From Diphasiastrum complanatum (lineage: Eukaryota > Streptophyta > Lycopodiopsida > Lycopodiales > Lycopodiaceae), in NCBI GenBank assembly GCA_029204225.1, contig CM055112.1, positions 46,329,063-46,393,062 on the forward strand: 64,000 nucleotides of DNA, written 5' to 3'. Below, one piece after another: positions 10,749 through 64,000 of this stretch. The position numbers and the translations under genes were made by a program. Numbering within the stretch: position 1 is the stretch's first letter; each line of letters begins with the position of its first letter. The notes under the pieces are model-generated. The model was given only the letters and a program-made list of their open reading frames with translations. It ran no database searches and was not told the origin of the DNA.

Positions 10749-10779
<31 letters not shown>

Positions 10780-13700: not shown

Positions 13701-14219
13701 CATATCCACCCAGAAAGGCTCCATGAAGAGGATGTCGTGGAAGGCCAAGCCCTCTGGGGTCGTGGACAGGTCCATGGCGGTGAACTCTGCAGAAGTAGCC
13801 ATGCGCCGCAAATCACCCTTGGGCTTGTGTAGCCGCTCAAGCATGATGAACCGGTAGGCGAAGCGGGTGCGAGCGGGCTTCTTCAAGTCGAGCCTGCATT
13901 GACAAACGGAATGAGAGGCAGACATGAAACGAGCCAAAAGGACCGTGTAGATCTGACGGTAATGGCACAGGCGTAGGTGCAACAGTGGAGGCTGTGGATC
14001 CATGGGGAGTATTGGCGGAGGGGGTGGGGGTGGTTGTGGCAGATGCGGATGCGGCGGCGGGGGTGGGGGCGGTGGCGGTGAGTGTACCAGTGGCAAGGGC
14101 GGAATGCCCCCAAATGTGCTCGAACTTGAGAGGCGTTCCCTGTGAACTGCTTTCGACAAAAAGGGCAACGCCACTTTTTGTCGGGCATCAACTCCACCTC
14201 ATCCCAAATGGGACGAGCG

Positions 14220-14295
<76 letters not shown>

Positions 14296-14513
14296 GCACG
14301 CAAATCTAATATCTCTCTCTTTCTCTTCTCCTAAACCCCAAACCCTAGCACACAGACCCTAAACCTTAAACTCACACACACACACCATGTCTCGTACACG
14401 CGGGCGCACACACAAATCCTCTCTCTCTCTGTCTCTCACACTCATTGTCTCTTCCTCTCTCTCTCTCACACACAAATCACTACACACACACCTGTGCATA
14501 CACAAATCAACTA

Positions 14514-14556
<43 letters not shown>

Positions 14557-14620
14557 TCATATCACACACAATCATCACACGCACACACACACAGAACTCA
14601 TCACACACACACACACCGTA

Positions 14621-14658
<38 letters not shown>

Positions 14659-17600
14659 GCCCTCTCTCTCTCCTCTCTCTCACCTTCTCGAGCTTCTTGG
14701 GCTTCTGCGGACTGTTCCGCTGCCCGCACGCCTTTTTTTTTTTTTTTTTAAATTTAAAAAACGCGTCTGGGGCCCGGACGCGTCTGCGTTCAGAAAAAAA
14801 TTTTAATTTTTTTTTGGTACGCATCCGACCCCACGTCCGGGGGTTGGACGCGTCCGGGTCTAGGCGTCGGACACGGACGCGAAAAGCCCGCGTCCGGCCC
14901 GGACCTTCATGTCTGCTATAGATACATATTACATACTATGTTTGTAAGTTAGTATATATAAAATATACAAAATGTTTATGCATCTAGAGAGTTTATATAA
15001 AGTATGCATCTAAGTTGCAAAGTATTTTAAAACTTGTACAAAACAAGCATATCAGGATGCTCTTGAATATTGGACTTCAATTTGATGAGAATGTTGTCCA
15101 AACTCGAATTTTTTTTGAAATTTGTTTTGAATTTTAGATACACAACATTATCTAACGCTAATGGCAATAGAGATCTAATGTCTAAAATCTATGAGGTGTA
15201 GAATGTGTTTATTCAACTAACAACGAATTACAATTTATGCAGATGCTAGGGCTTGCAAATCCCAAAGTATGAACAACATATTATAACCTTGCACAATTAA
15301 ACAAACAGAGGTGCGATATTGCATCAATGTTTCACTGAAACACGTTTCATTGAATGAAGCTCCGTTTCGAAAAGTCCGTTTCAAATGGACCGTTCAAAAC
15401 GGATTTTAAAAGACGAGGGGAGAAAAACCACCCCTCCTCTGTGTGTGTGAAAGTTTGGCATATAAAAGGAATAGTAGAATTTTGAATACCTTCTGCATGT
15501 GCAGTACCAATTGTCATCTCAATGTCTCATTGTTAGTCATCTAAGTGTGATTACCAATTGTTTGTATTGTCATTGTATAGAGCTATATTCCTTTTCTAGA
15601 CACTTAAACAACACTTGGTTTTCCTTCAGCAAAAGCCTAGGAATAAAACCAAGCAAAAAAAAAATAAACCCTAAAAATGTTTCGCTATTTTTTTCTCTAC
15701 AAAGTCGATGCTTTGCATTCCAAATGCGTTGCGAAAAGGCTTTTTGAAAAGGTCCCACAAAACATTGTTTCGCATCAAACGATAATCCAAATCCTATAAT
15801 ATTAGCACCCATGTACAAGTGATTATTAACAAGAAGCAAGTACATTATTATACAAGTACTCTTTATAGTTGGTGCTTGGATAGACAAGAGAAAAAGATGC
15901 AAAAATAAGTATGAAACTTAGCATCATAAATCATGTGGTTGGTGTGCATGTGGGCATTTTGCAGTGCCTTTCTTCCTAGGTTTTGGGATTAGGGCTTAGG
16001 GATTTAGGGTAAGTCTTAGGCGTCCATTGCATAGGTACCAGGGGCCAGTTTTTTTATAGTGGCTACCTTGCATTTTCCTTAGCTGACACCACCATCTTCC
16101 ATGACATGATGAGGGAGATTGCAATTTGTGATGCCACTTGGAGACCCCCCACACGTGGGCGCCATTTGAGAGAGGAGCATGTATGCATCACAAGAGAGCT
16201 CAACCCTACACGACATGCCTGGGCCACATATGGTTGCTCTATTCTATCAGATGGGTGGATTGATATTAGGCACATGCCTATTATCAACATACATTCGTAA
16301 AACCAAAAGGTAAGACTTTTAGATACATCATCCGGATGTATCTTGATCTGATGATATCCCGTTCGCAAGTATTTCTGGTGAGTTTATTTAGACACTTGTA
16401 ATCCACGCATAGTCGGAAACCCCCATCCTTCTTATGCTTAAGAAGAATGGGTGCTCTCCATGGTCTAGTAGAGCGTCTAGTGTCTTGATCTCCACCCCAA
16501 TCCGAGTCACAAAAACCAGCCAAACGTGCATCATCACTAGAAGGATAAAACAGATCAAGTGTTTTACTTCCTTGAAGATATCAAAGGATCCTCTTCAATG
16601 CTTTCCAATGTGATGTCAACGGAGCATGCATGAATTGACTCATGAGGGAAACACTATAAGATATGTCTGGTCTTGAGTTGCATAAGTAAATGAGACTTCC
16701 AACCGCTTGACAATATAGTGTAGTATCAAATGGTTCACCACCACTTTGATTACTTAACTTCAGGCCCGTCTCAATTGGTGTAGCAACCGGCTTGCAATCT
16801 TCCATTTTGAAACGCTTCAAAATCTGCTTAATGTACCGCTGTTGGGTAATGAAGATTCCAACCTTTCCTTGCAAAAACTCAAGACCAAGGTAGAAATGCA
16901 ATTGGCCTAAATATGATGTATCATAAATTGAAGCAAGATCAGATTTTAAGGCTACAATATATTGTTCATTACTACCCGTAATGATAATATCATCAACATA
17001 TAGCAAAATGATGATGATAAACTCAGATGTATGCATGAAATAAAGCGTAGATTCACTAGGACTGTTAGAAAACCCATGATCACAAAAGTATGTGTGTATC
17101 TTTTGATACCACATCCTTGGGGCTTGTTTTAGTCCATAGAGAGCCTTCTTGAGAAAACACACTTTGTCTTCTTGACCTGTAACCAAAAAACCAGCAGGTT
17201 GCTGAAGGTAAACTTCCTCATTAAGATCACCATTGAGGAAGGCTGTCTTTATGTCAAGTTGGTGCATACGCCAACCATGATGGGCAACCAAAGCAGTGAC
17301 TATCCTTACGATAGTTATTCGTGCGGTAGTGTGTTGAGAGTTGATTACGTAGAAAAAGCACTTTCACCGTATTCTTCACTTGGAACATCTTGGCAAGTAC
17401 TTCCCAAGCACTCTTGGAAGTCTTGCATGATCGAATGTGAGGTAGGATTGATCTCTTCACGGATAGCGCTATGACTGAATGTGCTTGTGCGTCACGTCGA
17501 TCCCACTTCTTTTGTTCTTCGGAAGACACCTCCACATATGTTGAAGAAGTAGCTCTTGACGGTGTAGTAAGTGCCAAACTAGGTGGCCTCTCTTCATCAC

Positions 17601-23600: not shown

Positions 23601-26600
23601 AGGAGATACAATTTCATCCAATCCAAGCTCTATTTTGAGAAACTTGGAAAATAGCAAAGTTACCTGGTTTTTGACTGTACTTGGATCTCTTGCAACAACT
23701 CAGCGAGAGTATGTGGCTTTGCATGCTCTTCAGCGCTTACATGCTCAGGTGATTCTTTTAAATTTGGGACATTGAATAATTTGGATCTAAGCTACAAAAA
23801 ATAGTTCGATTATTCTTTCACTGTAAACGTTTCAAGGAGGTAGGTGATAAAGTTAGCAACAAACGTGGAAGTTTTTGATGTAAAAACTGACGGCCCATCG
23901 AAGGATCCCGTTCTTGGTGGGTGAATTTAACTGGTTGCTTAAATTCGCTGAATAGCAGATGATAAAGGCAATGGTGCAGCCACAGGCAGATCATTTCCCT
24001 CGATATGACCAAGAGCCTCCAGCAATGCCAGATTGTTTCACTGCTCCTTTTGTTCAGCATTTGCATGATAACTTTAATGGCCCCCAATTATCTGCCATTC
24101 AATGGGCAGGAATGCACACCGCTGCCGGATCTAGTGACATGGCTACAGGGTTAGGAAAAAGACAAGAACTGTGGCCATTCACTTTGGTACAAGGCCCACC
24201 AGGCACAGGAAAAACACATACTGTCTGGGGTATGCTGAATGTTATCCATCTTGTGCAATATCAGCGCTACTATGCGGCGTTGTTGAAAAAGCTTGCACCT
24301 GGAAGTTTATTGCCAAATTCGAGCAGCTTATACAATGATGAACAATCGGGGGGGATAGACGAAGTCTTGCAGAAGATGGATAGAAGTCTTTCTCGGATGC
24401 TTCCAAGGCTGTGCCCAAAACCACGAATGCTTGTCTGCGCTCCTTCAAATGCAGCTACAGATGAGTTGCTCTCGCGTGTCCTTGATCGAGGCTTCATTGA
24501 TGGTGAAATGAAAACTTATCGTCCTGATGTTGCACGCGTTGGGACAGATCCACAATCACGAGCTGCCCAAGCTGTCTCTGTTGAGAGAAGATCTGCTCAG
24601 CTATTGGGAAAATCTCGTGAAGAAGTAGTGGGATGGCTTCAGTCTTTTCGCATACGGGAAAGAAGTTTGGCGCAGAGTGTGGCCAATGTACAAAGGGATC
24701 TGCACGCTACAGCTGCAACACGATCTCAGGACACCGTAGGGGTGGATCCAGAGATGCTGGCAGCTCGTGATCAAGCTCGGGACTCGATGCTGCAAAAACT
24801 GGCTGCATTGGTAGAGGAACGTGACAAATTGTTGGTAGAGATGTCACGTCTTTATATGGTAGAAAGTGTGTCTAAGCCTGGCGGTGGTATTTCTCAAGCT
24901 GAAGCACGTGGGAAGCTGGAGGCAAGTTTTGCGAGTGAAGCTGAAATAGTATTCACAACTGTGTCAAGCAGTGGACGCCGTTTATTTACTAATCTTGCTC
25001 GTGGGTTTGATATCGTTGTAATAGACGAGGCTGCCCAGGCCAGCGAAGTGGCGGTGTTACCCCCCCTTAGCCTTGGTGCTGGACGTTGTGTGCTTGTTGG
25101 TGATCCACAACAGCTTCCAGCAACAGTCATCAGTCGTGTAGCAGACACAATGCAATACAGTCGTAGCTTATTCGAGCGCTTCCAGCAAGCTGGCTGCCCT
25201 ACAATAATGTTGACTGTGCAATATCGAATGCACCCTCAAATCAGAGATTTTCCGTCTCGATATTTCTATCAAGGTCGCCTTATCGACTGTGACAGAGTCA
25301 AGAATTTACCTGATGAAGTATTTCATCGTGATCCCATGCTGCAACCATACTTGTTCTATGATATCAGTCATGGCCGGGAATCTCATGGAGGTTCAGTTTC
25401 TTATCAGAATATAGATGAAGCACAATTTGCTGTACGCCTTTATCAGCATCTTAAAAGTGTTGTGCAAAGTGCAGGCATGTTCAACCTATCAGTTGGCATA
25501 ATCTCTCCTTACAAGATGCAACTTAAGTGTTTGCAGAAAGAATTTGAATCAATGCTTGGTGCTGATGCTAATTTGAAAGAGATATACATAAATACTGTCG
25601 ATGCTTTTCAAGGTCAAGAGCGAGACGTGATAATAATGTCATGCGTTCGGGCATCAACGAAAGGAGTGGGTTTTGTCGCAGACATACGCCGAATGAATGT
25701 AGCTTTGACCCGTGCACGCCGGTCTCTTTGGGTACAGAATAATTTCTATTCTAGCTCTCTGATTGCTTAAAAATAAAAGCTGTTTTGTAAAGTATCCTGA
25801 TTTCTGGAGCATATTGCTTGTACCGATCTATGGTTTTATTGTCTCTCTTGGGTTCTCCACTTACGGTGCCTTGAAAATGAATGTCCTCCTTCAGTTGCAG
25901 TATCTTGAATCTTGTAGAACTTTTTTTTCAGGTGACAATCAACATCTAAGCTAACTATGTCGGATGACCTCCAACTTTCATAAGAATCCTAGTTAAGTTC
26001 TGGATGAGTATTTCTAAGCACCCATTCTTACAAGTGTTTGCATTTGTCTACATCTTTGTATATGTCCATGCTTTTATTAAGGTGAGTGTACTGGTGCTTT
26101 TGGATATCTGTTGGCCCTAATCATTGTTCATAACATTCCAATATTCGATTGAAGGAAAGTTAACAAGCTCAAATTTAAACCGTAAATCTGAGAACCGTCA
26201 AAATTCAGTCATCCTTAGAAATGGTCATTTTGTGCTTTTGTGCTAAAAAAACATCTACTAGTAGTCTTGATAAGGGGAATGGTAAAGAACCATATTGTAG
26301 TTCGTTCATATTCAGCTATTTGGAGTAGCAGGGTGGAGCAGAAAAAAAAGTGATCTTAGCCTTTTGCAGAAAAAAGCCTGTCTTTCTAGATTGAGAATGC
26401 CTTATCTACTCATGATGATGTGACCTTTTGGACATATATGTGTCCGCTTGGTGTTATGAATAACTCTTTTGGCCAATCCTTCGTGCATTATGACTAATAG
26501 TTGGAAGGTGACTGGAGCAGGCGCAAGAATTCTTGACCATTCGTTCTTTAAGCCTTTGGAACGGTGAGATTTTTAGTAAAGCGTGCATCACTGTTGCATC

Positions 26601-35600: not shown

Positions 35601-38600
35601 TCCACAACAAGCTCACATAGCAACTGTATTTCTCAAAATGAAATTACACTGTACATATAGTTGTTCACTCAGGCAACCCATGCATGACCCAGGTTGCCGT
35701 TGGTGGGACGCGTGTCCCGTCGACTTGCCTCGTGGCGAGGCCAACTGATCCTTATCCACTGATAGGACCCACAGTACAGTAACACAATGATTCTAACTTT
35801 AATTCTAACTCTCTCCCTTAAAGTAGAGTCACTTTTTATACAGTCATATACATAGCTTTAAAGTCAACAAACTTTAAGTACAGAAAGCTTTGATCTAAAC
35901 TTATCAAACTTTTCTCCAGTAAGTGGCTTAGTGAAAATATCAGCTAGTTGTTCTTCTGTGCTACAATGAACAACATGAATTTTACGACTCAGCAGCCTCT
36001 CACGTATGAAGTGATACTGAATCTCAATGTGTTTAGTTCTCGCATGGAACACTGGATTCTTTGCTAGCTGAATGCCACTCTGACTGCCGCTATGTAAAGT
36101 CGTGGGATTTTTCTGCTTCATGCCAATTTCTTCCAAGATTTGTCTCAACAATATAGCTTCCTGTGCAGCACTACACATTGCCTTATACTCTGCTTCTGTG
36201 GTGGAAAGAGCAATTGTACTTTGCTTCTTACTAGACCAGGAAAAACAACTACCACAAAACTGGAATATATATCCTATGGTGGATCTACGATCATCATAGT
36301 CACCTCCCCAATCCGCATCCACATAGCCACACAACTCAGGTAAACCATCATGCTTCCTGTAAATCAAGCCATACTCTGAAGTGCCTTTCACATAACGCAA
36401 AATGCGTTTAGCTGCCTTCCAATGCGTTTCCGTAGGTGCTGCCATAAACTGACTTACAATGCCAACAGCAGAGCATATATCTGGTCTAGTCATGCTAAGG
36501 TAAATCAAGCTCCCTACTAACTGTCTATATAGCGTAGCATCAAATGACTGTGACTCATCAAGCTTAGAAAGCTTTTTACCTGGTTCAATAGGAGTGTTTA
36601 CTGGTTTGCAATCCTGCAACCTAAACCTGTGCAGCAACTCTTTGACATACTTCACCTGTGTTAAACCCACTTCATGTCCTTTTTGCCACACATCTACTCC
36701 AAGGCAATAATGCATCAGGCTGAGATCTGTCATCTCAAATTGTTCCATGAGTTCTTTCTTGATCATGTCTATCATCTCTTGATTATTTCCCGTAATGATC
36801 AAGTCATCAACATAAAGAGCAATCAAAGCAACCATACCATCAAAGCATAAGACATATAGATTTGGATCAGAATGTGTTCTCACCATCCCCTTTGAACGAA
36901 AGTAGGCATCAATCCTGCTATACCATGCACGTGGTGCTTGTTTAAGACCATAAAGCGCTTTCTTCAAGCGACATACTTTATTTTCCTGACCTTTCGTTAC
37001 AAAGCCTTCAGGTTGATCCATGAACACTTCTTCTTCTAACTCACCATTTAGAAAAGCAGATTTCACATCCATCTGATGCAAAGGCCAACCAAAATGTGAA
37101 GCTAAAGCAATAAGTAGACGTAGAGTATTCCACTTACAAACCGGCGCAAAGGTCTCCTCATAGTCGATGCCTTTATTTTGTGCGTACCCTTTGATCACTA
37201 ATCTTGCTTTGTGTTTTGCTATACTTCCATCTGCATGGTACTGGGTCCTGTATACCCATTTGCAACCAATGGGTTTCTTGCCAACTGGTGGTTCTACTAA
37301 GTCCCATGTGCTATGCTTAGCAATTGACTCCATCTCCTCTCCCATGGCCTTGACCCAAATGTCATCATCCTTCGCTTCACCATAAGTCGAAGGTTCTTTG
37401 CTTTGAATAATGCTAGATAAGAGAGCATAATTTGCTTCATACCTTTCAGGTAGTATCTTCTCTCTCGTTGATCTTCGTAGCTCTCCCTGGTTAGATGATC
37501 TTGGAAAGTCATCTATGTCGCGGCTCTCCAACAATCTCTCAAACCACTTAGGGAGGTTTATGTCAGGTGATTGGCTTCCTGGTGAAAATGTATCCCACGG
37601 TACATCCTTCTCCTTGCGTTTGTCACCTGCAACTTCAATCCTTCTTGCACCAAAAGGTTTGTCCCTACCTCTCCAACCTGTTTCTTGAGGTTGAGTAGTA
37701 GTATCTTGAGATGTATCCTCATGTTCATCACTCGGAAGGTCAATGGATAGATCATCATCAGGTGGTATCCTCACTATACCATCTTTCCCACTGGATGTGT
37801 CTATCTTCTCAGCATCCTCGTCTTCATACATCTTGGATTCATCAAAGATAACATCACGGCTTATATGAATTTTGTTTTCGGCTGAATCAAAACATCTATA
37901 GCCCTTCACACGATCATCATATCCTAGGAATATGCACTTGATAGCTTTTACATCAAGTTTACGTCTCTCTTCCTTAGGAATGTGTACAAAGGCCTTACAT
38001 CCAAAGATTCGCAAGTGGTTCACCTTTGGCTTCTTCTTCGTAAATGCTTCCTCAGGTGTTATCTTTGGTATGACAATGGTAGGACTTCTATTTTGAAGAT
38101 AGACTGCCGTGCTACATGCTTCTGACCAAAAATCTTTTGGTAGTTTCATCTCAGCTAGCATAGATCTGGCACTTTCCACAATCGTACGATTCTTGCGCTC
38201 AGCTACACCATTGAGATCAGGAGTATGAGCTTGCGTAAATTGTCTTTTAATCCCACATTGATCACAAAGATCATTGAAGTCATTAGACTTGTACTCACCT
38301 CGAGTATCTGATCTTAGGACTTTGATCTTCCTACCTGTCTAATTTTTGACCAATGCTTTGAAGTTCTTGAAGTTATCAAATGCATCTAATTTCTTCTTCA
38401 AGAAGTAGATCCACGTTTTACGTGACATATCATCAATAAAGGTCATGAAATAGAAGGCTTTACCTAAGGACATGGTCCTCATAGGCCTGCATAAATCTGT
38501 GTGGATTAAATCCAGGATGTTCTTTGCTCTTGCAACACCCCCTTTATTGAACTTATCTCGATGCTGCTTCCCATATACACAAGATTCGCACATCGATTTC

Positions 38601-41600
38601 AAGTGATCTTCTATGGTAGGCAATCCTGTTACCATCTCCAATTTTCTCATCAAACTGAGGCTTCCCAAGTTCAAGTGACCAAGCCTCTTGTGCCACAACT
38701 CAGTTTGCGAAGGAATGGACGATACAAGTCCATGTTGCCCCTTGATTGTAGCATTCAACCTGTACAATTTTGTATTGGGCTCTCTTATTCCATCCGCAAT
38801 AACTTTGAACTTTTGGTTCACATCCTTCACAAAGCAACGATCATGGGCGAATTCTACTTTCAACTTTTGATCAGTAATGACTCCAACAGAAAGTAGATTT
38901 TTCTTCAAACCTGGTACGTAAAGTACCTCCCTGATCATCCTGCTTTTGCCATCAGGTAGTTGGATTGAAACGGTGCCTATTCCCTTGATCATGCACACCT
39001 CACCATTTGCTTGTGAAACAGATGTTCCATCATCCAACACCTTCAAACTACTGAACCAATTCTTGTTACTTGTCATGTGTCTTGTGGCTCCTGAGTCAAT
39101 ATACCATGCTTGATCATCTTGATTAGATGACAATGCAGATATGAAGATGCTAGAGTCTTCAATCTCACCCTCATCGACAAGGTTACCTGCTTGTTTTGGT
39201 TTCCCCTTGCCTTGCTCTGCCAGAAATTTGCGATGGAAGACATTCACTCTTCCGATGGCCCTTTTTACCACAATGGAAGCACTTGCCTTTCTTCTTATAC
39301 TGGAAGATCCCTCATCCTCCTGAGACTTGGCAAATTGTTGCTTAGACTTCTTCTTGCCCTTGCCCTTGCCTTGTTTTTGGCGTGTCGCAAGTGCCTGATC
39401 GTCAGTATTTTAACGTCTAGCTTTCACCATTTCTCGTCGTTGCTCTTCTTGCATCAAGATTCCTGTGAGCTCGTCAAAGGTTGGCAATCTTTCTCTTGAT
39501 GCTATTCCGCTCATGAACATCTGATAGGATTCTGCAATGCTGCACAATGCATTGTGCACCAGCTCCACATCACGTATGCACTCGCCAATAGAATGCAGTT
39601 CATCTCTCATTGTCTTGATTCTGGTCATGTACGTCTGAATGTGCTCTCCTTGCTCCATGTGGGCACTATTCAACTTTGACTTCAAAAACATGATTCTTGA
39701 CGGATTTGACGTCTCGAACTGCTCCTTTAGCACATCCCATACCTGTCTGGGTGTAATAGCATCACAAATGTGGGTAATGATGTGATCCTTCACTGACAAG
39801 TTAACGAAGGTCAAAGCTTTCCTCATCTTTTTGTCGAACACTTTGATGTCTGCTTCATTTGGCGGCCTTCTCTCATCACCTGTGACGACTTCCCACACGT
39901 CTTTCTCCATCAGTATGTTTTTCATTTTGAATTTCCACACTGCATAGTTGGAAATCCTGTCCAATTTGCTACTTTCACTCAAAATGGACTCTCCCATATT
40001 TGCCATCGCAAAACTGCTTGAAACTTCTGCCTTAGGCTAAGAACAGTATGCGGAGGCCAACAGTAATGTCAGAAGTTGAAAATAATGACCTGCACTTTTT
40101 CCCTTACCAGGCCACTCGCCACTTTTCCACCAATTTGAAAGCCAAATTGGTGTCGCCTTTCGAAATGCACTCAGTCGTCAACTCCTAACAACGTGCCCAG
40201 TGGAATGGTGAAATCACTTCTGGCGTACTTTGAACACTTTCTCCGCTGCAATCACTCTGTTTTGCTGTATCGTACTTGCAGGTACAGTCTGGGTGCCCTT
40301 CGTTTGGAGGTTATAGCCTTTCGTTTGGGTCAAAATGGGCAGAGGACCCAAAATAGGGACTTTTCTAGTTTTTGAACTGTTTCTTCACAATGAAGAAACT
40401 TCACTCTTCACTTGTGAAGGGACCCAACTCAACTTTCAGTATGAAAATTTTTAATGAAGTTGAAGGCCAGAATGCACTTCACTTCTTCAGGGCCCTGTTC
40501 AAAGCTCATCCAATGGCTGAACCAAATCTTGTGGTCCAAATTTTTCTCTCATCACAAGTTCTGGACCGTCGATTCATTTGACACCTCATCCAAAGGTCCA
40601 AACTACATCTGGGCATTGAACCATGCTCCTATAGTCGCTATGGTCTTCGAGACACTACACTGACTACTGCGTTGGGCGTGCGAACAGCCCGCGACCTCCC
40701 TGCCTGCGGCCGCGCCTCTCCTCTCTGAAAAATGTCAGATCAAACTCGCCTGTGGATCGTTTTGAGCACGATCTGAGGCCTGGAGCAAGGTCGCCCTACT
40801 GAATTCAAGACTGTAGAGTGTTCAGTCAGGAAATTCTGTGGAGAAACGGTGATTTTAGCTCAACTTGACAAAGTGGCTTTTTTCACCTTTTTACCGCAAA
40901 TTTGCTAGGTTAACTGTAAGGAGACAAATCTCTGACATAAACCTCAGAATCTCTCCATGGCTGGTTGACAATGTGATTAGCTTCCTTCCTGTCCTTACGG
41001 CATCCAAAACGGTGCACAAACAGCGAAGAAATCACCAGTTATGTATAAAAACCGTAACCCCAAGCCCGGTTTCAATTTTCAGCTGGCTTCAAAATTGTCA
41101 AATTTTCACCAAATTTTTCCCTGTCTGATGCTATGCACAGGCTAATAATCCCTCTGCTGAGCTTAGCAAGCCTCTATAAATAAGAAACCGTGCACCAGTG
41201 CTTCTCTTTCCGTCTTCAACCCGCCGTAAACCCCGAACTCTCAGAAGACAGTTCTCCCGAAACTCTCTTCAATGACGATGCTGTACTCTGTGTACACTCC
41301 CTGTACGGCTCTGATACCAACTTAGAATTTGCTTTGCACAGGAACATAGATCATGCCACACAGTAACACAGACAGAAAACACTCTCCACAGCAAGCTCAC
41401 ATAGCAACTGTATTTCTCAAAATGAAATTACACTGTACATATAGTTGTTCACTCAGGCAACCCATGCATGACCTAGGTTGCCGTTGGCGGGACGCGTGTC
41501 CCGTCGACTTGCCTCGTGGCGAGGCCAACTGATCCTTATCCACTGATAGGACCCACAGTACAGTAACACAGTGATTCTAACTTTAATTCTAACTCCAAGT

Positions 41601-53932: not shown

Positions 53933-55720
53933 TTGGATCACAGCTACCAGGAGGTGGAGCTTGAGGATCTTGGATTTTGCAGTTCTTTTGGTGTAGCTCT
54001 TTGCTTCTTCTTCCAGGTGTTGGAATTCAATTTCAAGTAGGTGGATTCTCAGATCCTTGGTGTACTTTTAGCCTAAAGATCATAATTGTGGATTTGTTCC
54101 ATGAATTTTGAAGGAAATCATTGAATTTCTGATTAATTTAGTGAATTTTCACCTAGAATTGATGGTTTTTGCAAGGAAATGATTATAGGATCTGGTGTAG
54201 TACGTGTTTCAAATTGTACTAGCTGTTTTACAGTCATTAATTACAGAATTTAGTGATTGCACGTTGGTTGAAAAGTCAAAAGGTTGATTAGATAGTGATT
54301 TGGACCAAAAATTGGGGTTTTTGGACCACAAATGGGCTATGGAAACCATGTTTGACTTGAATTAAAACTTTTAGTGCTTGCATGCAATGGATTTATAGGG
54401 ATTTGGATTTGAAGGCACGAATTTGTGGATTTCCCCCGAATTTGGGTCAAAATTGGTCAAAAATCATGGTTTTTTGATGTTTTTTGGACTAATTTTGGGT
54501 AGATCTCAAAATTCTCAGTCAAGAATTGGTAGGACGTTTTTAGAGATGTAATGAAGTTGTCCCTAAGCTGTCATGAAGTTTGGTAGGGATTAGACACCAT
54601 TAGGGGGCTCAAAACAAAATGGTGTATTTTTGATGATTTTTGAGCATGAATACCTCTCAATTGGGGGTTTGAACCTATTGGTTCTTGTTACAAGCTCAAA
54701 GATATGTTGGATTGCCTCTGATTTGAGCCATCATGCATCCAATTTGGATAGATGTGCATTAGACACCAGCATATTGTAGTTTTGCTTGTTGAAGAAGGCC
54801 AAAAATGCATTTTTTGCATGATCTGAGCTTATGATTGCTTGCTGGACCTGTTAGAAGCTTCTATGCCTCTCTAATGAACCTTAGTAGAGTGCTTGTAACC
54901 TTTGATCCAAGGCTTTTTGGGCTGGGATGTGTTTTTTGATGATACCTCTCCACAAAAGTGCACCCTCCTACCTGTTTTTCCAGCATTTAATGATCGCACA
55001 TGTGAAGCCAGGGATGCAGGGTGACATGGCAACTGCCTTGTAGACCCACTCTCCCTCCGTACTGTGCTTTACAGCGACCAATTTGGTGTCCTGTAGAGAA
55101 AGTTATGGCCGCCTGAAGTTTGGCAATTTCTGAACTAAAATTTGCAAAATTTTGGAATTGTTCTGATGCATGCATGCTTGTAAATCAGTATAGTGCTTTC
55201 CCTTTGATGGAAATGTATGGATAGACTGTATGCATGCCTAAATGCATGTTGCTTGTGTAACCAGTGATTTTGATCAATAGAATTCTTGCATGTGACTATT
55301 TTTGGCAATTCTAGATCAAAAAGTAGATTTCCTAGCAACTAGGCTATTTACGAAAAAATTTTACTTTTTTTGGAAAAGTCAGTACATGGCGAGTTAGTTC
55401 CATGCAGGATCTTTCGAAATTATATCGATTTGAGACAGTGCCTGTGTTTTTGCAAAATTGAACTGATTAATCGATTTTCACAGTTGGTCCATTTCGAACA
55501 GATTTCGAAAATTCTAATTTTTTGTAAAAGTTAGTGGTTGGTCATAAAAAGTTGTTGTTGCTTAATTGTTCTGATATTGATTTTGTGAAAGTTTGCTCAA
55601 ACGAGTGAAAGACCTTGCTGAATGATATTAGCTAGTTATGAAGGTTTTGAACGTTTCACTTATTAGTTGATGATTGGATCTCGACTAATTTAAGCAAATT
55701 TTGCATGTCAGGAAATCAAT
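53933..55720 (+). other. Long untranslated leader of the chromovirus
   Basis: About 1.8 kb between PBS and gag ATG, AT-rich, with many short T-rich stretches and no credible ORF. Chromovirus leaders are normally much shorter. Confidence 0.6.
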
Positions 55721-56823
55721 ATGGCAGACGATAATGCAAATGCAGCTCTCGATGGCCAGGTGCCAATGCCTACCTATATGCAAATTTGTCAGTCATTAAG
55801 CCAAGCGCTTAATGAGATAAACAACATGAACACTTTACGTGATCAACAAATGGAAGTACTGTTAAATCAAGTGAGAGCTTTGTCTACTCCGAATTTGGGC
55901 TTTCAGCCTGAACCATTTTCGGGGGAGAAAAAAGAGAAGAAGCCTGAAATTGTGGATGACTGGTTAACCAAGTGGACCGGTTATTTTAATCTACACAGAA
56001 TTCTTGAGGAGAAAAAGATAGAGAGTGTTATTCTGTTTTTCCGTGGTAAAGCTTCGTCGTGGTGGCGTGATTTACAACCTAAACCTACAACATGGGACGA
56101 GTTTATGGAGGTGTTCAGAAAGTCGTTTGTGGTTGTGGACGACTCAGATTTTTACCAAGGATTTGTGAATTGCAAAATGGTTACTCAGAGTTTGGACTCG
56201 TACCTACAAGATTTTATGGATTTGTGGAATAAAGTCCCCTCATTTGATGCAAAACTGGCACTGTGGCAGTCTATCCTAGGTCTGCCTGCAGATTATCAGA
56301 ATGAGTGTAAGCGTAACGTGCTTCAGACCTTTGATGATGTAGTTCGTGTTGCGAAAGCGTACGACTCCACGGTGGTGGCATCTAGGAAGCAGTTACAAGC
56401 TAATCCATCTGGATCATCCGGACCCAGCCAAAAAAAGGAAAGAAAAGAGTTCGTGGAAATAAGAATAAAAAATATTTTGACGAACTGGATCAAGCTGCAT
56501 CTGAATTTAGACAAAAGAAAAAGTTGTCCCGGAAAAAGGCTAGAAGGACCAATGTTTGTTTCCATTGTGGTCAGCCTGGACACGTTATGAAATTCTGCCC
56601 AGAACGAAAGAAAGGTGCAGCTCTAGTGATTGAGATGCCAGGTAAAGAGAATCTTAAGCTGGAAATTAATAAAATTAATTGTGAGTGTGATTATTCTTTC
56701 AGTACTACTTCATTCTTGCCAAATGAATTATTTCGTTTGAAAGGCACTGTTAATGGACATGAAGTTAGTATTTTAGTGGACAGTGGATTATCTCATAATT
56801 TCATTAAAACTGGTCTTGTGTAG
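55721..56823 (+). pseudogene. gag and protease of the 53436 chromovirus
   Basis: The gag ORF 55721-56590 (289 codons) contains the retrotransposon gag core (PEPFSGEKKEKKPEIVDDWL, FFRGKASSWWRDLQ, LDSYLQDFMDLWNK, ILGLPADYQNECKR). A frameshift near 56440-56520 moves the zinc knuckle CFHCGQPGHVMKFC into the frame 56524-56823, which also holds the protease motif VSILVDSGLSHNFI with an intact DSG. That frame ends at a TAG at 56821 inside the protease. The start ATG follows a normal leader and suits the family. Confidence 0.9.
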
Positions 56824-57084
56824 AGACTCGGGCTCAAAACTAAAGCCAATAACCATAGATATCGTGTATATCTAGCTTCAGGAGTGGAGTTGGAGACGTG
56901 GGATGTGAAAGTTCCATGACTCCCTGTTTGAATTCAAGACTATAGAGAGTTTATTGATTTCCATGTTTTAGATTTAGCACGTACATATATTATTCTAGGA
57001 TACGAGTGGTAATTTAATAAGCATCCTGAAATAGATTTTAAGAAGCATGTTCTCTCTTTTCAAGAAGGTAAAGAAATAGTTATA

Positions 57085-58747
57085 TTGTTTGGAGACAATT
57101 TTGTACATCCATCTGGGATAAGTTCATTTGCTAATGTAATGGAGATTTTTGATTCACAGTATGAAGCTTATTCTTTATTTGCTAAGCCAATTTTGGATTT
57201 ATCTGAAATGTATCTAAGTAGTTGTGAATTGTCAAAAATTCTTAACTCGATAGACTTAGATCAGGAGCAAATTGAGAAGAATAAATTACTGTCTGAATTC
57301 AAAGATGTATTTCCAGAAGAATTACCTCATGGATTATCGCCGTCCAGATCGGTAGATTGAGTTAATTTCAGGTAGTCACCCTATCTCTAGACAACCTTAT
57401 CGGTTTTCTCAGAAAGAAAATGTAGAGATTACTAAGCAAATTGAAAATTACCTGAAGATGAGCCATATTCAGCCAAGTAAGTCACCTTGGGGCGCTCTTG
57501 TTCTTCTGAAAGCGAAGAAAGATGGAGGCTTCAAGATGTGTGTGGACTACAAAGGGTTGAATAAAGTAACTATTAAAAATAAATATCCTTTGCCTCGTAT
57601 GGATGATCTGGTAGATCGATTAGGTGGAGCTAAATACTTCACAAAGATATATCTTAGAACTGGATATCATCAGATTAGGATTCATCCGGGTGACGTGTAG
57701 AAGACTAGTTTTCGAACGAGATTCGGTCACTATGAATTTCTCATGCTTCCTTTTGGGTTAACGAATGCACCAGCTACGTTCCAACAGATGATGAACGATC
57801 TTTTCCGTCCATATCTAGGGAGGTTTGTGGTTGTATTCTTAGATGATATTCGCATCTACAGTAGAACACTTAAGGAGCATTTGAGTCATCTTAAGACTGT
57901 CTTAGATATTCTCAGACGAGAGAAACTCTACGCTAAGGAATCTAAATGTGAGTTCTTTAAGCATGAGTTGTTGTACCTCGGTCATAAGATCACCTGTAGT
58001 GGGTTGGAAATTGACGAGAGTAAGGTCAAGACAGTGCCTGATTGGCCGATACCGAAGATGGTTAGAGAAGTTAAATCTTTTCTCGGTTTTATAGTTTTCT
58101 TTTGTAAGTCAATTGAGGATTATGCTAAAGTAGCAGCACCCTTAAATAATTTGACTACAGGCAGAGTTAATAAAAGGAAAAAGAGAGGTCAACCTAGCGA
58201 GCCTATTGAGTGGAATGATGAATTGAACCAATGCTTTGAGAAACTCAAGCAAATGGTTGCTTCAGCTCCTGTTTTACAGATCGCGAATCCTGATATACTT
58301 ACGTCGTGCGAACTGACGCAAGTGATTCGACAATAGGGGCAGTTCTTCTACAGGGGGATAGGCTGATAGCGTTTGAAAGCAAGAAACTCACGGGGCCTCA
58401 GTTGCATTATACAACTCAAGAGAAAGAGTTATTTGCTGTGATACATGCACTTAAAAACCTGGAGGCATTACCTTTATGGTAGTCAGTTTATAGTGTATAC
58501 AGATCACCAACCTCTAAAGTACTTTTGTAATCAGAACGATCTAAGGGGTCGTAAAGCTCGCTGGGCTAAGCTTATGCAAGAATTTGATCATGAGATCCGA
58601 TATATCAAGGGCAGCTCTAACCAAGTTGTGGATGCACTTAGTCGGATTGGTGAATTAAATGAACTTTCTTCCACCCAGATTTCCATTGATCTATATCTTT
58701 CATTGAGAGGAAAATGTGAATCAGATTCTCATTTTGGTCCCATCTAG
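57085..58747 (+). pseudogene. Reverse transcriptase and RNase H of the 53436 chromovirus
   Basis: A linker (57085-57360, ending [12 protein letters not shown]) is followed by a small deletion at about 57355. RT then reads [31 protein letters not shown] and [19 protein letters not shown] (57458-57700), breaks at a TAG after HPGDV, and continues [36 protein letters not shown] (catalytic LDD) and KFCG-loop sequence to a frameshift at about 58305. RNase H (FESKKLTGPQLHYTTQEKEL; then VYTDHQPLKYFCNQNDLRGR) lies in two frames to 58747. Four breaks prevent a functional polyprotein. Confidence 0.9.
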
Positions 58748-60120
58748 AAGATGATGGATACAGGAAAAAATGAAAATGGAATAGAGATTTACTCACAGGG
58801 GTTTCAGGTTCCTAGGAAAGATAAGAAGATAGTGGAACAGTTCTCTATCCAAGGTGGGTTACTATTTCGGAATGGGAAAATTTGTGTACCGGTGGATGAT
58901 GAGTTAAAGAAGAAGATTCTTTATGAGTGTCATGACATTCCCTGTGCAGGTCATCCGGGTATATGCAAGACTTTGGACTTGGTCAGAAGAGAGTTTCATT
59001 GGCCATTTGTCGAGTCTTATGTGGTTAAGTGTAGACCTTGCCAATTAGCCAAAACTGAACACTTAAAGACTGGAGGGTTGCTACATCCCCTAGATATCCC
59101 TCAGAAACAATGGAAAAGTATATCTATGGATTTTGTGGTTGGACTTCCAAGGACCCAATGGCAAAATGATTATATTTAGGTTGTGGTGGATAGGTTGACA
59201 AAGTTAGCTACTTTTATACCAGTCAAGTCAACTGCTAAGGCTTCAGATTTAGCCCAGATCTTTGTGGAAAGATTATTTAGGCTTTATGGATTGCCAAGTG
59301 ATATAGTTAGTGATAGAGATCCTAAGTTTACAAGTCACTTTTGGTCAGCTGTATTCCATAAGCTTGAAATCTCACTTAGTTTTAGTTCTTCTAATCATGC
59401 TGAATCAGATGGCCAGACTGAGAGCAAGCAATCTCAGTGGGAAGATTACATTCCTTTGATTGAGTTTGCTTATAACAGTAGAAAAATTTTGCTACTAATT
59501 ATAGTCCGTTTATGCTGATGTACGGTTCTCAACCTAGATCTCCGGTAAATGTGGAGACAAAGTCTGTTAAGATCCAGAAAGTTGCAGATTTCTTGCATGA
59601 TATGTGTGAAATGTTGCAGGTGGCCCGTGATTGTATCCGGAGTGCTCAGGATAGAGCTAAGCACTATGCCAATCTTAAGAGGTCTCCCAGAGATTTTAAA
59701 GTTGATGACTGGGTATATCTTAGAATACCTAAGGATTCTAAGACTATGAGTACAAGGAAGCATTATAAATTGTCTATGAGATATTGTGGACCGTTTCGGA
59801 TTATAAAGGAAATTGGTTCTTTAGCTTACGAATTAGATCTTCAAAACAAGACTACAGCTCACCCAGTGTTTCATGTAAGCCGGTTGAAATTAAGTTTGCA
59901 TGAAGGTGAAGTAGTTGGTTCAGAGGAAGATCTTACCCATTTGGAGGACTCATCAAGTGTTCCTTTAGAACCTGAAAAGGTACTCAGAACCAGAGATAAA
60001 CAATTGAGAAATCGTTCTATCTCTGAGTGCTTGATCAGGTGGAAGGGACGAATTGAGGATGATGATTCATAGGAAATGGTCGAAAGCATAAAGAAGAATT
60101 TCCCTAGTTTTCATTTCTAG
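58748..60120 (+). pseudogene. Integrase and chromodomain of the 53436 chromovirus
   Basis: The HHCC zinc finger is visible (HDIPCAGHPGICKTLDL ... CRPCQLAK, about 58930-59050). The catalytic core gives [11 protein letters not shown] (first Asp), VSDRDPKFTSHFW (second Asp) and ESDGQTESK (Glu), so all three acidic residues remain. A TAG at 59177-59179 stands at a tryptophan position before VVVDRLTK, and a frame change occurs near 59480-59515. The C-terminal region (HPVFHVSRLK) leads into a chromodomain (ECLIRWKGRIEDDDS) interrupted by TAG at 60070-60072, again at a conserved Trp. Confidence 0.9.
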
Positions 60121-60638: not shown

Positions 60639-60752
60639 AGTCCATTGTCGCCTCTCTACATAAAATATGTTGTCAATCATTTGAGCAGAGAAGTATAATT
60701 GTCAAGCTGAGTTACCCCTATGACCCATCTTTCAGATACATGTCAAACAAGG

Positions 60753-62177
60753 TTTAGGGCTTAGGGTTTTAGGGTTTCTAGGGTTTTAGGGGTTTTAGGG
60801 TTTTAGGGTTTTTAGGGTTGTAGGGTTTCTAGGGTTTAGGGTTTAGGGTTGAGGGTTGAGGGTTGAGGGTTGAGGGTTTAGGGTTGAGGGTTGAGGGTTT
60901 AGGGTTTAGGGTTTAGGGTTGAGGGTTGAGGGTTTAGGGTTTAGGGTTTAGGGTTTAGGGTTGAGGGTTGAGGGTTGAGGGTTTAGGGTTTAGGGTTGAG
61001 GGTTGAGGGTTTAGGGTTGAGGGTTGAGGGTTTAGGGTTGAGGGTTGAGGGTTTAGGGTTTAGGGTTGAGGGTTGAGGGTTGAGGGTTTAGGGTTGAGGG
61101 TTGAGGGTTTAGGGTTGAGGGTTTAGGGTTGAGGGTTTAGGGTTGAGGGTCTAGGGTTGAGGGTTGAGGGTTGAGGGTTTAGGGTTGAGGGTTGAGGGTT
61201 TAGGGTTTAGGGTTTAGGGTTTAGGGTTTAGGGTTAGGGTTTAGGGTTTAGGGTTTAGGGTTTAGGGTTTAGGGTTTAGGGTTTAGGGTTTAGGGTTTAG
61301 GGTTTAGGGTTTAGGGTTTAGGGTTTAGGGTTTAGGGTTTAGGGTTTAGGGTTTAGGGTTTAGGGTTTAGGGTTTAGGGTTTAGGGTTTAGGGTTTAGGG
61401 TTTAGGGTTTAGGGTTTAGGGTTTAGGGTTTAGGGTTTAGGGTTTAGGGTTTAGGGTTTAGGGTTTAGGGTTTAGGGTTTAGGGTTTAGGGTTTAGGGTT
61501 TAGGGTTTAGGGTTTAGGGTTTAGGGTTTAGGGTTTAGGGTTTAGGGTTTAGGGTTTAGGGTTTAGGGTTTAGGGTTTAGGGTTTAGGGTTTAGGGTTTA
61601 GGGTTTAGGGTTTAGGGTTTAGGGTTTAGGGTTTAGGGTTTAGGGTTTAGGGTTTAGGGTTTAGGGTTTAGGGTTTAGGGTTTAGGGTTTAGGGTTTAGG
61701 GTTTAGGGTTTAGGGTTTAGGGTTTAGGGTTTAGGGTTTAGGGTTTAGGGTTTAGGGTTTAGGGTTTAGGGTTTAGGGTTTAGGGTTTAGGGTTTAGGGT
61801 TTAGGGTTTAGGGTTTAGGGTTTAGGGTTTAGGGTTTAGGGTTTAGGGTTTAGGGTTTAGGGTTTAGGGTTTAGGGTTTAGGGTTTAGGGTTTAGGGTTT
61901 AGGGTTTAGGGTTTAGGGTTTAGGGTTTAGGGTTTAGGGTTTAGGGTTTAGGGTTTAGGGTTTAGGGTTTAGGGTTTAGGGTTTAGGGTTTAGGGTTTAG
62001 GGTTTAGGGTTTAGGGTTTAGGGTTTAGGGTTTAGGGTTTAGGGTTTAGGGTTTAGGGTTTAGGGTTTAGGGTTTAGGGTTTAGGGTTTAGGGTTTAGGG
62101 TTTAGGGTTTAGGGTTTAGGGTTTAGGGTTTAGGGTTTAGGGTTTAGGGTTTAGGGTTTAGGGTTTAGGGTTTAGGG
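60753..62177 (+). repeat. Plant telomere-type array, (TTTAGGG)n with degenerate left part
   Basis: The left third (60753-61239) mixes TTTAGGG with TTGAGGG, TTTTAGGG, TTTCTAGGG, TCTAGGG and one TTAGGG. From 61240 to 62177 the repeat appears perfect: 938 bp is exactly 134 x 7 and the phase is kept at both ends. The G-rich strand runs left to right, so if this is or was a chromosome end, the end lay on the right. Degenerate inner and perfect outer repeats are the normal polarity of real telomeres. It is followed without a break by PLE-related sequence instead of more repeats. Confidence 0.95.
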
Positions 62178-62467
<290 letters not shown>

Positions 62468-62517
62468 TAGAGAGAAGAGACACTTTTGCACACAAATGAA
62501 GGGAAAGTACTGATCAA

Positions 62518-62565
62518 TAGCAAAGCCAGACTAGTTTCGCTCGTGAGAGCTCATCAGTGGCGCTA
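62518..62565 (-). ncRNA. Type I hammerhead ribozyme
   Basis: On the minus strand all hammerhead core elements occur in order. The 5' strand of stem I is UAGC-GCCA (62565-62558). The core CUGAUGA (62557-62551) is followed by stem II GCUC-loop UCAC-GAGC (62550-62539) and core GAAA (62538-62535). A minimal stem III follows, in which the last A of GAAA and the next C pair with GU around a UA loop. The cleavage triplet GUC ends at 62529, and the 3' strand of stem I is UGGC-UUU-GCUA (62528-62518). Stem I pairs GCCA/UGGC and, beyond a UUU bulge, UAGC/GCUA. The very short stem III is typical of hammerheads found in Penelope-like elements. Predicted to self-cleave at 62529/62528. Confidence 0.92.
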
Positions 62566-62640
62566 AGGAAGAGGTGGACAGACCCCACACTCTCCAAAAG
62601 TACTAACTACAAGTGAGAGCAAAAGTGAGCCAAGGTATGG

Positions 62641-62648
62641 CTTTTATA
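62641..62648 (-). promoter_or_regulatory. TATA box upstream of the hammerhead
   Basis: The minus strand reads TATAAAAG about 75 bp before the first ribozyme base. A start site ~30 bp downstream would place the ribozyme at the very 5' end of a transcript, as expected for a promoter in a PLE pseudo-LTR. Function is inferred from position. Confidence 0.5.
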
Positions 62649-62667
62649 CTAGAAGAAATGGAATAAT

Positions 62668-63091
62668 CCCTGAGCATATGCTTCCAAGGGTCCAAAGTGC
62701 TAGTAGGCTAAAGTGCAGGTAGGGCTAAAGTGCTAGTAGGCTAAAGTGCAAGTAGGGCTAAAAATGACCGTTTGGGCTTAAAAAGTGACCGACGGAAATA
62801 ACCGTTAGATCGAATGTAGCCGACGGAGCATGAGAAGCACAAACTGCAAAATAGCTAATTTTTTCAAATTTTTCTAAGACTAGCAGTACCAACCAATGCC
62901 GATGATGCAGAAAAAACTGCTAAAAATAGGCATGGGGCAAAAATAGCTAAACTACCTGAAAAAGCAGTAAAACCCCGAGCTAATGCTTCAAGGGGTGAAG
63001 ATTACAATGGAAAGAGTAAAACCCTGAGCAAATGCTTCGAAGGGTGAACAATACATAGTAAAACCTCGATCCAATGCTCCGAGGGTGAGGA
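62668..63091. repeat. Hairpin repeats in the PLE 3' region
   Basis: Four related units: 62668-62690, 62972-62996, 63021-63045 and 63062-63086 (the last diverged). Each has an outer ACCC(C/T)...(G/A)GGGT stem and, in the first three, an inner AGC/GCT stem with a four-base loop. Between units two and three the outer stem changes by a compensating pair (ACCCC/GGGGT versus ACCCT/AGGGT). A separate 34-bp direct repeat (AAAGTGCTAGTAGGCTAAAG...) lies at about 62694-62760. Confidence 0.7.
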
Positions 63092-63097
63092 AGTACA

Positions 63098-64000
63098 TCA
63101 GTGAAATCTACTGTGAACCAAGTAACCCTGTAAGTTACGAGCCCGGAGCCAACAGATGATAGGCCGTCCGAAAAGTGTCGATAACTGCGGATCTTTCAGG
63201 AATGCGTCCGAGAGTTTAGGGTTTAGGAATGCCCCAAGGTTTAGAGCCTGAGTAAAAGGAGAGTGCTCAAGCTTCAGCACCAGGGGGGCCCGCCGAACTC
63301 TAGGAGGACCAGGAAGACATGCATCGAGAAGAGTAGATCTATCACTGTATGAAGCAGCAGCAGCAAAGCAAAGCAGGATGAATGCTCTGGGATAGCCACG
63401 AGCACGCAAGCGCTGATAAAAGCTGTGTCGAAGAGCAAGAAACCCATCCAAGGTACTTTCTCTGAGAATATAACGCTGAAGCTCACCAAGAATGAAAGCA
63501 CGCTTCTGGTGACGCGGGTGGCAGGAAGACCAAGGTAAATACTGATACCTGTTAAGGCTCTTCTGATGACAACTGGAAGAAAGGATACCAGAAGAGCGAA
63601 AAGCAGCATCCTTCGAAAAACAAATGTCGAGGATATCTATACTGAAGTCCGAAATCTGCCAGTGTATATGAATGGAGTCCACCAAGGAATCATACCTAGA
63701 GAGCCAATGCTCAAGAGAAGTGCGAGAACCCTGCCAGATACCAAAACCATCGTCGATGAAGCGCCTGAAGTAGATAGGCCAGGAGGAAGGGGTCGAAGAA
63801 ACTGCCAAATCATGCTCCAAACTGCAAAGGAAGAGACAAGCGTAGACAACTGCAAAGCTGGTACCCATAGCTGTACCTCTGACCTGAAGCCAAAAATCTG
63901 CATCAAACTGAATGTAGTTATGCTCAAGGACTAAAGAGGCAAGATTGAGAACAAGTCTTTCCAAAGGAACAGAGGAAAGCCTGCCAGCAATCATAGACTG
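63098..64000 (-). CDS. Penelope-like element reverse transcriptase (partial, C-terminal part)
   Basis: The minus-strand frame is open from the window edge to a stop at 63098. Counting from the Met at 63994, it shows FDADFWLQVRGTAMGTSF (30-47), the PLE RT block with GTAMG; FRRFIDDGFGIW (76-87), the catalytic motif; SIDILDICFSKD (118-129); and SCHPRHQKRAFILGELQ (157-173) followed by RLRARGYP (195-202), all diagnostic of PLEs. It ends in RARNLQGYLVHSRFH, just where the linker would lead into a C-terminal GIY-YIG nuclease, which is absent. That fits EN-deficient Athena/Coprina-type PLEs. The N-terminal half is outside the window, so a permuted N-terminal nuclease cannot be excluded. No frame break is seen. 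The 3' end points to the telomere array. Confidence 0.88.
   Translation of the reverse strand, partial: QSMIAGRLSSVPLERLVLNLASLVLEHNYIQFDADFWLQVRGTAMGTSFAVVYACLFLCSLEHDLAVSSTPSSWPIYFRRFIDDGFGIWQGSRTSLEHWLSRYDSLVDSIHIHWQISDFSIDILDICFSKDAAFRSSGILSSSCHQKSLNRYQYLPWSSCHPRHQKRAFILGELQRYILRESTLDGFLALRHSFYQRLRARGYPRAFILLCFAAAASYSDRSTLLDACLPGPPRVRRAPLVLKLEHSPFTQALNLGAFLNPKLSDAFLKDPQLSTLFGRPIICWLRARNLQGYLVHSRFH

Follow-up and report, generated by a model that had tools for sequence, protein, structure and literature searches.

What is a hammerhead ribozyme doing beside a telomere, at the end of a plant contig? The question is posed by a window of 64,000 nucleotides from the 1.74-Gb genome of Diphasiastrum complanatum (C21:46329063-46393062), whose right edge is also the end of contig C21 (46393062). 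Reading of its minus strand revealed a type I hammerhead within 48 nt, from 62565 to 62518, made up in order of UAGC GCCA, CUGAUGA, GCUC UCAC GAGC, GAA ACUAGU C and UGGC UUU GCUA. Stem I has 8 bp in two halves of four with a UUU bulge between them, stem II has 4 bp and the loop UCAC, and the core consists of CUGAUGA, GAA-A and a GUC cleavage triplet (an NUH), with helices I and II in place. Cleavage is predicted between 62529 and 62528. An earlier note on this DNA had called the hammerhead complete. The invariant core, helix II and the two-part stem I with its bulge are indeed there, but helix III amounts to at most 2 bp closed by a 2-nt loop. The pattern of core and three helices was found at this one site when both strands of the window were scanned. 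The motif is thus confirmed as real from the letters; its class is that of a PLE-type (Penelope-like element) minimal hammerhead only, and self-cleavage is predicted. Conservation of the core in other copies, which the note had made a condition, was observed: the 48 nt are identical in 35 of the 36 full copies read in the host genome, and the remaining one has U for C at the cleavage position. Judged by their likeness, the copies are too young for this identity to bear on selection, and with at most 38 substitutions per unit they are too alike for covariation.

We examined helix III more closely. The bases that would form it, ACUAGU, make up a palindrome, identical to its reverse complement, which allows two ribozymes to pair through a common helix III of 6 bp. 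In the monomer only the A15.1-U16.1 pair is realistic, and no stable helix III was found. The hammerhead fold of the monomer was computed at -5.3 kcal/mol versus -12.8 kcal/mol for the best alternative fold, the double hammerhead at -27.4 versus -28.0 kcal/mol for the dimer optimum, and two ribozymes on one strand with a spacer at -24.6 versus -26.7. In none of these three cases was the hammerhead the computed optimum. Because the monomer fold is weak and the double hammerhead nearly equals the dimer optimum, the ribozyme probably needs two copies to act, that is, it looks built as a dimer, energies not being activity. Plant PLE hammerheads were reportedly described as canonical in a 2014 paper. 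The design also has precedents: in the portions of two reviews that we cite, newt and PLE hammerheads are described as acting as dimers (PMC6155905, PMC7761336), and PLE hammerheads are reported to lack a stable helix III (PMC6155905). As summarized there, the PLE hammerheads of Lunse et al. 2017 resemble the present one in their core, near-absent helix III, tandem or dimeric use and pseudo-LTR location (PMC6155905, PMC7761336). Compared with these known examples, the present ribozyme has a palindromic helix III, belongs to a plant element that lacks an endonuclease (EN), and stands in real tandem units.

The host of the ribozyme was identified from its reverse transcriptase, of which the window holds the C-terminal 300 amino acids and the stop codon (63098..64000, minus strand). 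Homologue searches with this fragment returned 8 relatives by single sequence and 14 by profile. Among the EN-less relatives, identity was 49% for a protein of Selaginella moellendorffii (P0135), 49% for one of Cryptomeria japonica (P0129), 39% for one of Closterium (P0134) and 33-52% for unnamed proteins, versus 27% for the endonuclease-bearing PLE P0137. The reverse transcriptase stops at the C-terminus common to the EN-less relatives, whereas P0137 extends beyond it with its GIY-YIG domain. The predicted model of another relative, P0132 (mean pLDDT 82), matched telomerases in 10 of its top 12 PDB structures, the other two being R2 (in first place) and LINE-1. No Pfam domain was matched by the fragment, by ORF1 or by the complete reverse transcriptase frame, and weak RVT_1 matches were confined to some of the relatives; the only match of a PDB sequence search was irrelevant. 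With a PLE reverse transcriptase, no GIY-YIG domain after it and a 3' end on telomere repeats, the host element is, on its sequence features, an endonuclease-deficient PLE. The PLE assignment of the earlier note is thereby borne out; its use of the ribozyme as independent support was fair, yet the reverse transcriptase alone settles the matter.

Copies elsewhere in the genome revealed the complete unit, which is about 4.76 kb long (4.14-4.85 kb in the 15 units measured). In contig C17, where it spans 4755 nt and both reading frames are open, the order is TATA-like box, ribozyme, CT-rich leader, the heptamer AACCCTA, ORF1 (669 aa), reverse transcriptase (619 aa) and a 3' untranslated stretch, after which come the TATA-like box and ribozyme of the next unit. 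The ORF1 start codon lies 18 nt after the first base of AACCCTA, and the reverse transcriptase start overlaps the ORF1 stop by one base. The ribozyme had been placed in the PLE 3' region; it does stand 3' of the reverse transcriptase, but in arrays it also lies 5' of the ORF1 of the next unit. Because it lies there, behind a TATA-like box, the ribozyme stretch is, to judge by unit order, the shared promoter and 5' leader of the next unit. The proposed pseudo-LTR organisation stands as a likeness, but it is the whole tandem unit that repeats, and no separate repeat was seen flanking a single copy.

The window holds the end of one such element on its minus strand. Past the reverse transcriptase gene, which includes a 14-nt telomere-like motif, CCTAAACCCTAAAC, in codons L-N-P-K (63214..63227; run scan and copies), comes the 3' untranslated stretch (62660..63090; TRF and folding). 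It carries four related hairpin-forming repeats (63090-63051, 63052-63012, 63002-62962 and 62700-62660), which might be recognition sites; by eye, one pair shows a U-A to C-G change between copies, and singly the repeats fold not significantly better than shuffles (z 0.25 to -1.42). A motif scan placed the TATA-like box TATAAAAG at 62641..62648, upstream of the ribozyme; it is the sole one in the sense strand of the window's element part and is not rare across the window (4 found versus 3.1 expected). The ribozyme sits within a larger stem (62481..62627) closed by the 9-bp inverted repeat CACUUUUGC (62627-62619) and GCAAAAGUG (62489-62481), and the 181 nt around it folded clearly better than shuffles (z -3.33; 0 of 200 as good). 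From the cleavage site a 349-nt leader (62180..62528; sequence and comparison of copies) runs through a (CT)n tract (62310..62480; TRF), whose length differs between units as seen in the variable distance from ribozyme to leader, and its end GTTGCTT|AACCC meets telomere repeats at 62179/62180. The plant telomere context of the earlier note is thus confirmed: a plus-strand (TTTAGGG)n array occupies 60751..62179, degenerate proximally and perfect from 61234 to 62179 (946 bp; TRF and run scan). Elsewhere in the window we observed several CT/CA microsatellites (10749-14681, besides the leader tract) and a SEN1/MAA3-like helicase gene (23956-25770, plus strand) about 35 kb from the telomere array, whose best named match is a Selaginella moellendorffii protein (72%) and whose unnamed matches reach 73%. 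Large reading frames at 35864-40036 (minus), 55694-60072 (plus) and 16581-17363 (minus) we take, from protein motifs, to be Copia- or Gypsy-type retrotransposons. Scans for bacterial promoters and terminators were set aside as not relevant to a plant.

Related copies were located with leader and ribozyme probes, a sample that leaves copies with other 3' ends outside. With the last 131 bases of the element, the best 40 of 75 candidates all had 99-100% identity; with the ribozyme stretch, the best 40 of 71 were taken, and copy counts are lower bounds. Head-to-tail arrays, most with 4.74-4.85-kb spacing, were found close to the ends of chromosome-scale contigs: the right ends of C13, C18, C9 and C16 and, beyond 5000 N, the left end of C17. 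Copies were also found close to the right end of C21 and, beyond a run of N, the left end of C7. At 6 of these 7 ends the main copies have their 5' side facing outward. On contig C2821 a defective unit was seen standing in tandem. We also inspected 18 contig ends, all from contigs known to hold a copy and thus not a random sample. Four had the element within the final 1.5 kb (for C18, the reading stopped 99 bases before the end), C16 had telomere repeats beyond an element fragment, and five were N; the last 1.5 kb of the other eight of the 13 readable ends contained neither the element nor more than one telomere repeat, one having a single TTTAGGG.

Where the element ends was determined by reading 42 leader ends in 210,683 bases and 11 more in short stretches selected as not yet read, 53 in all. 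Inside arrays (27 of the 53), the leader end reads GTTGCTT|AACCCTATT followed by ORF1 of the next unit, the boundary as a whole running as GTTGCTTAACCCTATT; all 27 boundaries were seamless and without a doubled leader. Telomere repeats follow at 24 of the 26 others; in 23 of these the junction is no more than 3 nt from the internal heptamer AACCCTA, which lies 349 nt past the ribozyme. These junctions fall into type A, GTTGCTTAACCCTAAAC (n=8, the window junction included), type B, GTTGCTAAACC (n=6), and type C, GTTGCCTAAACC (n=9). The remaining ends are a short leader fragment on telomere (C13), a rearranged one (C2821) and that of C1717 (L081). The last joins, at the usual point of the leader, antisense sequence of the element's own reverse transcriptase gene; with PLE DNA as the partner at that point, something other than pairing with the telomere may determine where the junction falls. 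These 3' junctions do not lie at the unit's best telomere-like stretch, which is the 14-nt motif. Types B and C depart from the internal sequence and are seen repeatedly, so some junctions may have been inherited from templates or duplicated. Shared flanks (C7 with C4432, and C3207:15479 with C9:588740) mean that not all junctions are independent events. C17 and C1252 share a telomere-proximal flank yet differ in junction type, which suggests that they attached separately.

The 14-nt motif appeared instead at the 5' side. Counting as sense 5' ends at least three perfect CCCTAAA running straight into sense element, we found six in the 210,683 bases, four of which begin exactly at CCTAAACCCTAAAC (C17:5041, C1557:58739, C16:51421544 and C3207:9743); the other two begin in the reverse transcriptase gene (C2821, query position 52) and in the leader (C13). 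Two telomere edges with antisense element (C13 and C2821) lie outside this count. The capping telomere in C1557, C16 and C3207 (about 126, 290 and 356 bp) carries a further copy, and because these are joined by junction types C, A and B, respectively, the three caps look like separate histories. Because the motif also encodes a conserved Leu-Asn-Pro, it may owe its persistence to the protein. In one C9 copy it has gained 14 nt, a number not divisible by three. None of the 36 cleavage sites scanned in the same 210,683 bases coincided with an element 5' end, and in the one partial copy listed for the ribozyme stretch the sequence breaks off at position 79 of 181, before the cleavage site is reached. 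Because the ribozyme stands directly upstream in 36 of 36 cases, cleavage does not define genomic ends as suggested for Terminons. At the right end of C16 (L097), a sense copy stops 7 nt past the cleavage site and is followed by 203 TTTAGGG; the simple reading is a break healed at TTT.

On the basis of the reverse transcriptase, the arrays, these junctions and the dimer energetics, we consider it fairly probable that this endonuclease-deficient PLE is copied onto chromosome ends by telomere-primed synthesis from a fixed internal site, its ribozyme trimming multi-unit RNA. The 3' end of the telomere G-overhang would pair with AACCCUA in the element RNA and prime synthesis towards the 5' end of that RNA, and telomerase would later cap the new end, aided by the 14-nt motif. 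With helix III needing a partner, the ribozyme would fire mainly in two-unit transcripts, and array transcripts would be trimmed to unit length. Priming would occur 349 nt 3' of the ribozyme, so cleavage at both ribozymes would leave a linear RNA from which only 349 nt could be copied; the useful template would therefore be uncut, multimeric or circular. An uncut single-unit RNA would leave a doubled leader at the point where a second copy joined it, and since 0 of 27 boundaries show one, circles, multimers or recombination remain, a choice that sequence alone does not make. Against this reading stand the 8 bare ends among the 13 readable, the copies in both orientations on C16 and the short inverted fragment on C13.

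The alternative that survives best, a tentative one, is that one telomere-primed insertion is followed by array growth through DNA recombination, with the ribozyme as a passenger that plays no part in insertion. The 36 cleavage sites without an element 5' end fit this reading, and so does the report, in the part of the paper on which we draw, that ribozyme mutants of a lizard PLE had no effect on insertion in vitro and that unprocessed RNA was the main substrate (PMC11167929). A mere passenger is harder to reconcile with a ribozyme intact in all 36 full copies bar the one C-to-U change, or with the statement, in the text available of PMC6155905, that hammerheads occur in all available PLE sequences.

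Slightly more doubtful is rolling-circle copying, in which array transcripts would be cut, unit RNA would circularise, and telomere-primed reverse transcription would go round several times to give seamless tandem units. The 27 seamless boundaries agree with it, as does the position of the priming site, which demands an uncut, circular or multimeric template. Neighbouring units are also alike, differing by 0-12 substitutions per 4.1-4.7 kb versus 9-38 between units of different arrays (15 units, 6 arrays, CT tract collapsed), and two adjacent units at C2821:17249-25544 share a deletion of about 600 nt in ORF1. Unequal exchange or conversion, however, also homogenises arrays; C13 contains two sub-groups of units that differ by up to 19 substitutions, and CT tract length differs between neighbours. 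An extension that we regard as unlikely makes the hammerhead a copy-number switch: folding only with two units per transcript, it would let only end arrays yield cut, circularised RNA, telomere-primed rolling-circle synthesis would lay new arrays, and the telomere seed in the reverse transcriptase gene would let telomerase re-cap broken ends.

That the locus is an ordinary PLE beside interstitial telomere repeats, rather than a chromosome end, we judge improbable. Some copies are internal, namely those on C10 (50.45 of 64.46 Mb), C5 (63.1 of 77.9 Mb), C9 (at 0.59 Mb) and C1 (286 kb from the end), three of these four stretches containing N runs; but the window's right edge coincides with the end of C21, the ends of C9, C13, C16, C17, C18 and C7 have copies no more than 26 kb away, and the 946 bp of telomere repeats are perfect. 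Inside the C10 scaffold (C10:50451987-50453160, L074), a copy borders on (CCCTAAA)n, after which (TTTAGGG)n begins almost at once, an arrangement that may be a scaffold join or a rearranged end. Hardly credible at all is a chance match, as the note had already held: the Rfam score is below its cut-off and the isolated 48-mer is no more stable than shuffled sequences (z -0.69), but the pattern had 0 matches in 120 order-1 Markov simulated sequences of 64 kb (7.68 Mb), it lies in the expected place and strand of a PLE, and a hammerhead-like motif is also present in the distant PLE of contig L001, 5' of its first long ORF.

The Rfam search proposed in the note did place its best hammerhead match, Hammerhead_HH9 (RF02275), at 62561-62525 on the minus strand, with 20.2 bits (E 0.36 over 9 kb and 0.012 over 301 bases, each against 4227 families); membership of that family was rejected, the curated gathering cut-off being 52 bits. 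Contig L001, the one carrier of a distant PLE among prokaryote contigs, is filed under a Desulfobacteraceae MAG and is a probable eukaryote contaminant. Its motif (L001:700-760), just 5' of the first long ORF, has a 5-bp helix III and a helix II of 2 bp plus an extra U; it is not listed by Rfam and occurred in 0 of 600 simulated sequences, with a pattern set after the motif had been seen. A scan for the ribozyme pattern returned 49 viral contigs (L002-L050), of which 0 had a PLE reverse transcriptase, and no relative emerged from two scans of viral contigs by protein alignment.

Both PLE hammerheads and telomeric plant PLEs are already known. Telomere-associated EN-deficient PLEs (Gladyshev and Arkhipova 2007), as excerpted from PMC12477314, PMC3846280, PMC9033089 and PMC10088271, share with the present family the missing endonuclease, a telomerase-like reverse transcriptase, attachment to chromosome ends and telomere repeats at truncated 5' ends. 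The same excerpts name Selaginella as a plant host with telomere association and pine and spruce as hosts of EN-less PLEs, and say that Athena elements hold embedded telomeric repeats. Compared with the 2007 elements as described there, the Diphasiastrum family has seamless head-to-tail arrays, a fixed internal heptamer for docking in its 5' leader and, within the reverse transcriptase gene, a 14-nt motif at which capping recurs; these arrays, the docking site and the capping motif were not found in print in a literature search of incomplete coverage. Also close are the Terminons of bdelloid rotifers (Arkhipova et al. 2017), which, in the sections cited through PMC6431247 and PMC12477314, likewise combine an EN-less PLE reverse transcriptase, a hammerhead, C-rich telomere sequence for attachment, head-to-tail arrays and truncation by telomere repeats. 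The element was nonetheless not classed as a Terminon: those reach 40 kb with accessory genes, whereas the 15 units measured here have 4.14-4.85 kb (about 4.76 kb, two ORFs), and by that description their telomere sequence lies immediately beside the hammerhead, whereas here 349 nt separate the two, the leader standing between them in other copies too. A retrozyme, non-autonomous and without reverse transcriptase, was rejected given the 619-aa enzyme in the unit, and Drosophila-type retrotransposon telomeres given the TTTAGGG tracts between and beyond units, such as the 203 at the end of C16. The active lizard Poseidon PLE PAc, in the account drawn on from PMC11167929, is similar in its tandem organisation, its hammerhead near the ORF start and a reverse transcription that starts within the RNA. 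It differs in carrying a GIY-YIG endonuclease and cutting its target; in the present family the telomere end presumably serves as primer.

The text cited from PMC7761336 calls the role of PLE hammerheads unknown. A ribozyme, a priming site and tandem arrays united in one young, near-identical family make that role directly testable, and a priming site downstream of the ribozyme forces a choice among uncut, multimeric and circular templates. According to the portion cited of a 2025 review, no counterparts of the Drosophila-type telomeric retrotransposons have been found in plants, and Selaginella PLEs are named there as a rare case of telomere association (PMC12477314). Arrays close to several chromosome-scale ends would call for a revision of that view. 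If the copy-number switch is true, maintenance of these plant chromosome ends would be shared between a retrotransposon and telomerase.
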